Assembly: GCF_900101115.1 (NCBI RefSeq)
Contig: NZ_FNFU01000008.1
Span: 62,001-126,000, forward strand
Length of the DNA: 64,000 nucleotides
Origin: Cryobacterium psychrotolerans
Lineage (GTDB): Bacteria > Actinomycetota > Actinomycetes > Actinomycetales > Microbacteriaceae
Direction: 5' to 3'
Numbering within the stretch: position 1 is the first letter of the stretch; each line of letters starts with the position of its first letter. The notes under the pieces were generated by a model. The model saw only the letters and a list, made by a program, of their open reading frames with translations, was not told where the DNA came from and ran no database searches. Positions 6,460-62,000 of this stretch are shown here, in pieces. A program made the position numbers and the translations under genes.

Positions 6460-6522
6460 CCGCGAAACCGCACTTGTGCGCGTTATTCGCGTCGTTTAGC
6501 GCGCACTACTGCGGTTTCGCGG
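6460..6522. repeat. 63-bp palindrome P1, family I (inverted orientation)
   Basis: Two 23-nt arms (6460-6482 and 6500-6522, 21 of 23 pairs) flank a 17-nt loop. The outer bases are CCGCGAAACCGCA and TGCGGTTTCGCGG. Read on the minus strand the loop begins CTAAA and ends ATAA, the same as copies at 7500 and 61938, so this copy is inverted relative to them. The right arm encodes the last residues and the TAG of the DUF559 gene. The plus-strand gene before it is followed by a C-rich tract and there is no T-run. Confidence 0.9.
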
Positions 6523-7447
6523 AGGTTTGCTGGGCGATGACTCGCCGCACGCGGTTGAGGAACGCCCGTTGGCGCGTGAACACATCGTCGGGTACCACCC
6601 GGATGACGCGCCACTGGTCGGTTTCGAAGATCTCGCGCCGAGTGATGTCCCTGCGAAAACGCTCTTTGTCTATCCGGTGCCCGTCGCCTTCGTACTCGAA
6701 CAGGAGGCGGGCCCACGGGTAGGCGAGGTCGGGTTTCCCGAGGCGCCGCCCGTTGACGTCGAAAATCACCTCGTTGACGACAGGTTCGGGCAGGCCGTCA
6801 TCGACGAGGATCAGCCGCAACCACGTCTCCGGGCGCGAATCCACGCCGGTGCGCACCCGGGCGATTGCCTCCCTGAGGTTCTTCGCGCCCCGGCGGCGGG
6901 CGCAGCGCAGCACGCCGGCTCTCAGCTCGGCGATGGTGGCCAGCGGGGGCTCGCGGCCCGCGTCGGTGACCCGGCCGGAGACGAGGTAGTCGCCGGCGGC
7001 AATGAGGTCGTAGAGCGTGAGGTGCGTAGCCAGCTGGCACCACGTCGATACCGGGTCGGTCACCACGAAGCCGTCGAGTTCCCGGAACCGGGACTCGATG
7101 CCGCCGAGCGCGTGTCCGACCACGCCGACGACGCGAGGCGGTTGGCCGCGCTCGTTCACGGCAACGTGGAGGGTCTGATCGTAGGCGAGGGACGGGGGCA
7201 GCGGGATCAGGTAGAGCTGCGCCGCCGTGATGTGGCTGAAGGCCTGGCCGGCGGGCATCCGCGGCAGGTAGCCCTCGCACCGGCCGTGCACGGCCGTGAA
7301 GTCGAGGTCGATCGCGCGCACGCCACGGGACGGTCGCTGCACGTCGGGGGCGAGCAGCCGGCCTCGTCCCAGGGTTTCCGGGGGAACATCCGTGGTGAGG
7401 AACGCACGTCCGCGGAGCGGCTCTGGGAGGATCGTTCGGTTTCGCAC
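6506..7447 (-). CDS. DUF559 nuclease-like protein with AbiEi-like N-terminus
   Basis: 313 residues, GTG start at 7447. The C-terminal 90 residues match DUF559, a Vsr/PD-(D/E)XK-like endonuclease fold: VIFDVNGRRLGKPDLAYP followed by LLFEYEGDGHR, an R/K-rich helix (KERFRRDITRREIFE) and WRVIRVVPDDV. The N-terminal 200 residues resemble the AbiEi-type/transcriptional-regulator region often joined to DUF559 in Microbacteriaceae. No biochemical role is established. The gene lies between two inverted copies of the same 63-bp palindrome, and its stop codon (SAKPQ*) is inside one of them. That suggests a gene-plus-repeat unit rather than an ordinary chromosomal gene. Confidence 0.8.
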   Translation of the reverse strand: MRNRTILPEPLRGRAFLTTDVPPETLGRGRLLAPDVQRPSRGVRAIDLDFTAVHGRCEGYLPRMPAGQAFSHITAAQLYLIPLPPSLAYDQTLHVAVNERGQPPRVVGVVGHALGGIESRFRELDGFVVTDPVSTWCQLATHLTLYDLIAAGDYLVSGRVTDAGREPPLATIAELRAGVLRCARRRGAKNLREAIARVRTGVDSRPETWLRLILVDDGLPEPVVNEVIFDVNGRRLGKPDLAYPWARLLFEYEGDGHRIDKERFRRDITRREIFETDQWRVIRVVPDDVFTRQRAFLNRVRRVIAQQTSAKPQ

Positions 7448-7499
7448 CCGGTCATGATGCCTTCTTCCGCCCGTGCGCGCCGAACCTGTCCACAGCCCA

Positions 7500-7562
7500 C
7501 CGCGAGACTGCAGTTGTGCGCGCTAAAACGCCCGAATAACGCGCACAACTGCGGTTTCGCGG
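7500..7562. repeat. 63-bp palindrome P2, family I
   Basis: Arms 7500-7522 and 7540-7562 pair at 21 of 23 positions around a 17-nt loop beginning CTAAAACG and ending ATAA. Length, arm length and loop match P1 (inverted) and P7. It lies 52 bp upstream of the DUF559 gene and downstream of aspS, separated from aspS by a purine-rich G-tract region. Confidence 0.9.
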
Positions 7563-13698: not shown

Positions 13699-13757
13699 CT
13701 GAGTTGCGGAGAAAGTACCTTCATTTCGCTCGGGAAGGTACTTTCTCCGCAACTCAG
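13699..13757. repeat. 59-bp perfect palindrome P3, family II
   Basis: Perfect 24-bp arms at 13699-13722 and 13734-13757 flank the 11-nt loop ATTTCGCTCGG. The inner ends of the arms are ACCTTC and GAAGGT. It lies between the convergent ccsB and menC genes, with a C-rich stretch on the menC sense strand, and has no T-run. Copy P5 at 43089 has nearly the same sequence. Confidence 0.95.
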
Positions 13758-28009: not shown

Positions 28010-28072
28010 CGCCGAACTGTGAGTTTGGCACCTTCCCGGGGTCCGGGAAGGTGCCAAACTCACAGTTCGGCG
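28010..28072. repeat. 63-bp perfect palindrome P4, family II
   Basis: Perfect 28-bp arms at 28010-28037 and 28045-28072. Measured from the shared core ACCTTC/GAAGGT the loop is again 11 nt (CCGGGGTCCGG). It lies between the convergent fprA and class III aminotransferase genes. Both sense strands are C-rich between the stop codon and the palindrome, and there is no T-run. Confidence 0.95.
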
Positions 28073-43088: not shown

Positions 43089-43147
43089 CTGAGTCGCGGA
43101 GAAAGTACCTTCGTTGGCGAAGTGAAGGTACTTTGTCCGCAACTCAA
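43089..43147. repeat. 59-bp palindrome P5, family II
   Basis: Arms 43089-43112 and 43124-43147 pair at 21 of 24 positions around the 11-nt loop GTTGGCGAAGT. The arms nearly match P3, while the loop differs. It lies between the convergent M23 peptidase and GH13 genes. Confidence 0.9.
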
Positions 43148-55789: not shown

Positions 55790-55837
55790 GCGCCCAGAAT
55801 CCCACAGAATCCCACAGTGTCGGACGGTTCGCCGCCG

Positions 55838-55894
55838 TGAGGGGTCGCAAATCGACCTTCATCGGCCTCGGGAAGGTCGATTTGCGACCCCTCA
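55838..55894. repeat. 57-bp perfect palindrome P6, family II
   Basis: Perfect 23-bp arms 55838-55860 and 55872-55894 flank the loop ATCGGCCTCGG. The inner core ACCTTC/GAAGGT matches P3-P5 while the outer stem is different in sequence. A C-rich stretch on the minus strand separates it from the aminotransferase stop codon. No T-run. Confidence 0.95.
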
Positions 55895-55933
55895 GGGGCT
55901 TGGGGGGGGCTTGGGGGCCTGGGAGGGGCGGGG

Positions 55934-61937: not shown

Positions 61938-62000
61938 CCGCGAAAACGCAGTTGTGCGCGCTAAAACGGGTTCATAACGCGCACTACTGCGGTTTCGCGG
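61938..62000. repeat. 63-bp palindrome P7, family I
   Basis: Arms 61938-61960 and 61978-62000 pair at 21 of 23 positions around the 17-nt loop beginning CTAAAACG and ending ATAA. It is the same family and orientation as P2 at 7500 but stands without a DUF559 gene. It follows the cupin stop codon (minus strand) by 12 bp. Confidence 0.92.

Follow-up and report, generated by a model that had tools for sequence, protein, structure and literature searches.

A nuclease gene bracketed by copies of a dispersed long palindrome in Cryobacterium psychrotolerans: a possible REP/RAYT-like system with a Vsr-like enzyme

In a 64,000-nucleotide stretch of Cryobacterium psychrotolerans DNA (the window, meaning the whole stretch analysed; its genome is referred to as G000), a predicted nuclease gene lies between two copies of a long palindrome, and another copy stands alone far from it. 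An earlier reading made from the letters alone (the sequence-only reading) likened this to the REP/RAYT pattern, in which a gene mobilises short palindromes, and proposed a DUF559 nuclease in place of a transposase. The question raised by the locus is whether gene and palindrome belong together and, if so, whether the enzyme may move the palindrome.

The unit in the window and its protein

Both 63-bp palindromes claimed by that reading were located, P1 at 6460-6522 and P2 at 7500-7562, flanking the gene. Palindrome, nuclease gene and palindrome form a compact unit of ~1.1 kb, one of four paralogous units in the genome. The features, including solo members of the four palindrome families, are as follows.

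6460..6522, minus strand: P1, the family I palindrome copy downstream of the gene, whose last codons and stop it encodes
6506..7447, minus strand: nuclease gene, 313 aa, with a C-terminal Vsr-like PD-(D/E)XK domain (PF18741/DUF559, sub-threshold)
7500..7562, plus strand: P2, the family I palindrome copy upstream of the gene, in inverted orientation to P1
61938..62000, plus strand: solo family I palindrome; site common to G054
13699..13757, strand not given: solo family II palindrome; same family brackets the paralog G000:C32:171912-172679; site common to G054
43090..43146, strand not given: solo family II palindrome
55835..55897, strand not given: solo family III palindrome; same family brackets the paralog G000:C20:113833-114714; site common to G054
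28010..28072, strand not given: solo family IV palindrome; same family lies upstream of the paralog G000:C32:452-1345, near a contig end

Hairpin folding of P1 and P2 as DNA gave z values of -5.8 and -6.8, and 0 of 200 shuffles folded as well. The opposite orientation claimed for the pair was borne out, because P2 matches the reverse complement of P1 at 55 of 63 positions and P1 itself at 48 of 63. P1 contains the stop of the 313-aa gene, its KPQ codons and the larger part of the codon for the A before them. The neighbouring genes are probably aspS and a Dabb-type gene, according to our own reading of the proteins. A search of the 64-kb window with Rfam at gathering scores returned four tRNA genes (40418, 48983, 49089, and 57312) and nothing else.

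Among the homologs, PF18741 matches 22 and DUF559 20 of 24 aligned members at E<=0.1, but the window protein itself falls below both Pfam cut-offs (PF18741, 19 bits against 38.2; DUF559, 12.6 against 20.6). In 235 distinct proteins, E207, D240, and H257 are conserved at 100%, D267 at 99%, and E251 at 96% (rounded). These are residues that we take to be the catalytic residues of the PD-(D/E)XK / Vsr-like superfamily, and the active site typical of that superfamily is, judging by the alignment, conserved. Some relatives have an AbiEi-like middle part: residues 57-201 of one of them (L097) match PADLOC AbiEi profiles, and one such profile matches 14 of the 24 aligned members at E<=0.1, with no AbiEi match for the window protein itself. 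Weak ZorE-like profile matches were also obtained in some relatives. The NCBIfam search of the protein returned nothing useful, and a sequence search against solved structures gave weak matches only, the best being the restriction enzyme PvuRts1I (E 0.15) over the nuclease stretch. Relatives at E<=1e-15 were found in 240 of 394 sampled genomes of the class.

Copies of the palindromes and the genes that they bracket

The third copy reported at 61938 is present, at 61938-62000, but the window holds just 3 of the ~80-85 family I copies of G000. Arm searches of this genome (at most 3 mismatches) gave 85 forward and 86 reverse matches, and 0 for the reversed control pattern. Conservation per position in 50 copies was 84-100% in the arms and as low as 46% in the middle. 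Arm changes among the same 50 copies comprised 53 one-sided, 0 complementary double, and 1 other double change; because no complementary double change was seen, selection on arm pairing is not supported. The gene setting of 46 copies was established using a simple purpose-written gene caller: the neighbouring genes are convergent for 21, tandem for 20, and divergent for 2, and the other 3 fall within a called ORF, so that the bias towards 3' gene ends leaves 2 of 43 intergenic copies between divergent genes. Six close pairs of family I with gaps below 1.3 kb were found, two enclosing a DUF559 gene and four enclosing other genes. A 184-aa DUF559 gene at G000:C25:6437-7234 (L031 1153-1950, L076) has a family I copy on either side, the two in direct orientation and with 10-bp flanks that are almost the same (9/10 on each side). 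It could be an insertion with duplication of the palindrome and flanks, and the genes around it are probably rimM and trmD, again on our own reading of the proteins. Family I occurs in 3 of 57 congeneric genomes. In one of these (G055) there are five weak matches, perhaps relics after gene loss, and two homolog matches, neither above ~42% identity.

Four full-length paralogs were returned by a protein search of G000 at E<=1e-10. Family I flanks the window unit (contig C18), family II the gene at C32:171912, and family III the gene at C20:113833, each on both sides, and family IV lies on the upstream side only of the gene at C32:452, near the contig end. The congeneric sister species G054, taken as Cryobacterium tagatosivorans Sr47, carries the same four gene-palindrome pairs, each with a match on both sides. 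Solo copies of every one of the four families occur within the window, where the families supply 7 of the 8 palindromes of score >=16 (shuffled sequence, 0); across 1.195 Mb of G054 there are 79 palindromes of score >=16, of which the four families supply 53, and at score >=20 they account for 42 of 46. Two further palindrome families, of the CGAGAGTCGCC and ACAACTGTGGCC types, were noted on G054 contigs C54, C57, C58, C68, and C79, with 5 copies each in the 1.195 Mb. No palindrome of score >=12 was found within ~1.5 kb on each side of L034, a G000 DUF559 gene outside the subfamily, or of six weak DUF559 matches.

Whether palindrome pairs flank these genes more often than others, a check proposed with the sequence-only reading, was answered in the affirmative. 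A matched pair brackets 34 of 80 homologs in named genomes (the best 80 of at least 525 confirmed relatives, not a random sample), as against 1 of 658 control ORFs of the same loci (ORFs within 600 bp of the nuclease gene excluded) and 0 of 27 aspS genes; Fisher's test for matched pairs gave 2.8e-35, with related loci treated as independent. At least one side carries a palindrome in 67 of the 80 homologs (best 80 of 525), 112 of the 658 control ORFs, and 14 of the 27 aspS genes. Using a stricter detector, matched pairs were found at 20 of the 80 homologs (best 80 of 525) and in 0 of 12,931 random windows. Detector thresholds were 16 for the stricter test, 12 for the genus loci, 14 for the similarity and synteny comparisons, and 13 for the control ORFs, the other families, and the brackets; the score cut-offs for matched pairs also differ between counts (24, 22, and 20), and the counts are not additive.

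Beyond this set, 110 loci of the genus (111 of 131 protein-match rows, the 20 left out being mostly fragments or weaker matches) gave 45 matched pairs at a looser threshold and without controls. An adjacent palindrome was found at 45, and a matched pair at 27, of 54 loci from other families of the class (14 initial loci and 40 chosen for spread over families), and the same loci contain 76 palindromes near the gene (58.9 kb) versus 4 elsewhere (146.8 kb, gene bodies included). Sixteen Microbacteriaceae loci from the class-wide search, two of which (L362 and L363) duplicate genes already in the set, gave 11 with an adjacent palindrome and 4 with a matched pair; this is an undercount by at least one, the start of L362 having been placed too far upstream and a strong palindrome thereby missed, and other long open frames may be undercounted likewise. 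At the thresholds used, 46 of the 80 homologs (best 80 of 525) and 27 of the 54 loci from other families are without a matched pair.

Over 88 brackets the unit length is steady (median 1120 bp, 10-90% range 1068-1225); the upstream copy precedes the start by a median of 62 bp, and the downstream copy is at the stop. The terminal copies are direct in 24 brackets, inverted in 17, and undecidable in 47. The inverted arrangement emphasised earlier thus holds for P1 and P2 but is not general, and inverted ends were dropped as a defining mark of the unit. Tandem, BIME-like palindromes stand beside six homologs (L086, L088, L195, L197, L217, and L245). A homolog in a Micrococcales MAG (L146, 39% identity) is bracketed by a palindrome with the outer 16 bases of family I and a different inner arm.

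Palindromes far from the gene resembled the gene-side one in 4 of 69 cases at the same locus versus 15 of 3933 comparisons with other loci (named loci, best 80 of 525). Relatives of the window protein were found in 4 of 72,556 plasmid records and 1 of 50,697 phage records; in viral contigs, 21 stretches fit a pattern and none was confirmed as a relative. Three Arthrobacter plasmid homologs have palindromes, one on both sides and two on one side. Among the 72,556 plasmid records, the first of these palindromes occurs at 20 places in each of its strain's two plasmids, the second 6 times in one and 4 times in the other of these plasmids, and the third at 6 places in its own plasmid (one palindrome may count on both strands); none of the three matched a record of another strain.

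Correspondence between palindrome and gene, and the age of the sites

Palindrome and protein similarity were compared for loci with a palindrome of score >=14 and a gene without stops encoding at least 240 aa (127 loci, 103 after removal of proteins more than 90% identical). In the 103 dereplicated loci, mean palindrome similarity was 0.16-0.17 below 50% protein identity, 0.23 at 50-60%, 0.30 at 60-70%, 0.52 at 70-80%, and 0.68 at 80-90%. The Mantel correlation, though small (r 0.085), was significant, exceeding every one of 1000 permutations, and the nearest neighbour by palindrome was among the five nearest proteins in 53 of 59 cases. Because such similarity could stem from shared loci, pairs from the same 127 loci with 400 bp or more of flank at either end were split by flank alignment. 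A common palindrome was found in 7 of 9 non-syntenic pairs at 65-75% protein identity (the nine derive from few genes and are not independent), 4 of 145 at 55-65%, and 3 of 391 at 45-55%. The corresponding counts for syntenic pairs were 17 of 70 at 65-75%, 31 of 43 at 75-85%, 14 of 14 at 85-95%, and 27 of 27 above. Since only 17 of the 70 syntenic pairs at 65-75% share a palindrome, the palindrome can change although the gene and its position are retained; the congeneric genome G024 has, beside aspS, a 61-62% identical gene in the same place, and the palindrome there matches just part of the family I arm.

The genus-wide comparison, which rests on the 110 loci, was tried as a cleaner test and did not prove to be one, similar palindromes occurring beside distant homologs and copies occurring without a close gene. 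Across 55 other congeneric genomes, the Spearman correlation between best palindrome and best cognate gene was 0.19 for family II and 0.02 for family III (not significant); for family IV it was 0.42 with the cognate gene and 0.45 and 0.47 with the non-cognate paralogs II and III, and family I was uninformative. Palindromes were present in 7 of 13 (II), 3 of 3 (III), and 12 of 19 (IV) genomes having a gene of at least 60% identity, and in 7 of 42, 19 of 52, and 9 of 36, respectively, of those lacking one. By coordinates, one family III match (G008:C1:2899499-2899559) lies ~400 bp before a homolog match and another (G020:C29:205600-205659) 70 bp before a homolog split in two pieces. Enzyme and palindrome co-vary by locus, and the cross-genome correlation is weak and adds no support. 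The contrary picture that the sequence-only reading had set against itself, namely palindromes independent of the gene and located at gene ends, is borne out in part by the 3' bias, the pairs around ordinary genes, and the weak correlation between genomes; the remainder of it fails because, locus by locus, the families are bound to the gene subfamily. Given one-to-one families and correspondence off synteny, cognate recognition by each enzyme would be the simplest account.

The age of the sites was estimated by comparison with G054 (~90% DNA identity with G000). When 61 G000 and 58 G054 palindromes of the four families were tried, 16 and 13, respectively, had both flanks in the compared part of the other genome, and 15 of the 16 and all 13 of the 13 were present in both species. 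Most copies therefore predate the split of the two species. At the single site absent from G054, G000 has the palindrome and ~30 further bases with no clean target duplication, so the suggested look for empty sites in a close relative brought out no clean insertion junction. One shared site (L003 1501-1563 versus G054:C56:117354-117420) has its loop in opposite orientation, which reflects either inversion or replacement of the element.

In G000 and G054 the unit separates aspS from the Dabb-type gene; G024 has a relative next to aspS. Although aspS was matched in 57 of 57 genomes, the gap counts rest on 30 loci: in 17 the two genes are adjacent without the unit (22-267 bp apart), in 5 other DNA lies between them, and in 5 there was no Dabb match. 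Taking away the unit, outer edge to outer edge, would leave 60 bp in G000, inside the 22-267 bp range, and either a gain in one lineage or a loss in others would fit. Unrelated solo palindromes stand in this same short gap in different species (L291, L299, L296, and L301), as if it collects palindromes.

Possible action of the nuclease and comparison with known systems

Overall, the best explanation, to which we assign a rough probability of 0.55, is that the nuclease copies or maintains the palindromes as a REP/RAYT-like system with an unrelated enzyme. Each paralog's enzyme most likely recognises its own palindrome through the N-terminal and AbiEi-like part, and it would cut or nick at the palindrome with the Vsr-like PD-(D/E)XK domain. 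Repair or strand exchange after such a cut would place further copies of the unit, or more frequently of the palindrome alone, at new intergenic sites, and the same process may keep the palindrome copies alike. By analogy with RAYT, copying by the enzyme would be a natural extension of recognition. The pattern that the sequence-only reading had recognised, REP/RAYT-like with a non-HUH nuclease, is strongly supported by the four paralogs with their four families, the controls, the other families, the clade match, and the missing Y1 match; its further claim that the gene mobilises the palindromes is an inference, 15 of 16 compared sites being common to the two species and no clean junction being seen at the absent one. 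Bracketing, its specificity for the subfamily, the locus-wise match of gene and palindrome, dispersal within one genome, and a conserved active site are what the data show, and binding, cutting, and copying are inferred. That a class-wide mobile repeat system exists in which a Vsr-like nuclease, not a HUH transposase, copies and maintains its own long palindrome, with four specificities in one genome, is put forward tentatively, at slightly less than even odds.

Recognition of the cognate palindrome might also serve regulation without mobilisation. By binding or cutting the palindrome, the enzyme would then control its own gene and a number of 3' ends, the palindrome acting as an operator, a terminator, or in mRNA-end processing, and the dispersed copies would be a regulon or a reservoir of binding sites spread otherwise. 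This would suit the upstream copy just before the start and the downstream copy at the stop, the convergent or tandem genes around 41 of the 46 family I copies, the stability of sites between species, and the AbiEi-like middle part in some relatives. By itself, however, it leaves unexplained the 80-90 copies, the conserved nuclease residues, and lineage-specific bursts such as that of family I, and no T-run terminators were found at the unit; we consider it unlikely, if worth keeping in mind. A selfish homing or defence-type nuclease, for which the palindrome is a homing site or a mark of self and the copies record cuts, repairs, or protection, is less probable again. It draws on the Vsr-like nuclease, the patchy presence with empty aspS-Dabb gaps in other species, the weak AbiEi and ZorE-like profile matches in relatives, and the near-matching flanks of the C25 gene, but no partner toxin or methylase was established, and relatives are few on phages and plasmids, with none confirmed in viral contigs.

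The remaining explanations deny the enzyme any part. If palindromes simply gather at intergenic 3' ends and nuclease genes merely inserted there, the intergenic bias, the palindromes at other gene ends (on any side, for aspS and control ORFs alike), and the family I pairs around ordinary genes would follow. What makes this very improbable is the excess of matched pairs over control ORFs, its recurrence in other families with different sequences, the separate family for each paralog, the tracking of gene clade off synteny, and L034, which lies outside the subfamily and has no palindrome. Ordinary REPs moved by a RAYT/HUH transposase, with the nuclease as a passenger, would account for the general REP/BIME look and the tandem palindromes beside L086, L195, and L217. 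Yet no match to Y1_Tnp (PF01797, the Y1/RAYT transposase) was obtained in G000 at E<=10 in a search that was positive in 10 of 14 control genomes, which contradicts such a passenger role for G000 unless the transposase lies in missing sequence (completeness is given as 99.99%) or was lost; this we regard as the least credible of the explanations.

If the copying reading is true, bacteria would have a second, independent way to carry gene-linked dispersed palindromes; we know of no nuclease class of this kind with that role. It would also offer a functional lead for a large group of proteins now labelled 'DUF559' or 'endonuclease domain', together with enzyme-palindrome pairs ready for work on how recognition changes.

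A published account of such a nuclease-palindrome system was not found by title or abstract opening, a scope that leaves out most subscription papers and preprints. DUF559 / MTES_1575 Vsr-like nucleases share the C-terminal domain and catalytic residues with the window protein. MTES_1575 is described in the consulted part of PMC3710099 as carrying a novel Vsr-type REase, and neither it nor Caulobacter VsrA (PMC12907096) is linked to palindromes in those portions of the two sources. The antitoxin AbiEi of the AbiE type IV toxin-antitoxin system resembles the middle of some relatives; in these a nuclease domain is fused, and the window protein is without an AbiEi match. An AbiE system has an adjacent AbiEii toxin gene. 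The neighbours at the window locus, the one locus considered here, read as aspS and Dabb-type. Pairs of MITEs and insertion sequences likewise combine an autonomous unit with many gene-less copies, but the gene-less copy here is one terminal palindrome rather than an internally deleted unit, and no clean target duplication was seen at the one site absent from G054. Transposons with terminal inverted repeats differ in that inverted ends are not general here (24 direct, 17 inverted, and 47 undecidable of 88), although the window pair does have them. REPs sit in intergenic settings, and no GTAG/CGTC tag of REPs was apparent by eye in the family I flanks. In TIRtrons / TIRYTs, as presented in the consulted part of PMC3733652, terminal repeats, some being genome families, bracket a gene in the same manner; the gene there encodes a tyrosine transposase, of which G000 gave no Y1_Tnp match. 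The closest comparison is with REP/RAYT (TnpA-REP): in both, a gene is flanked by a palindrome dispersed in the same genome, enzyme and palindrome covary (for REP/RAYT, co-evolution of TnpA-REP and REP is stated in PMC8266576), and tandem copies occur. The differences are that the palindromes here are ~60 bp, against the 20-40 bp given for REPs in PMC3733652 (part consulted), and that the enzyme is of the Vsr-like PD-(D/E)XK type and not HUH/Y1.
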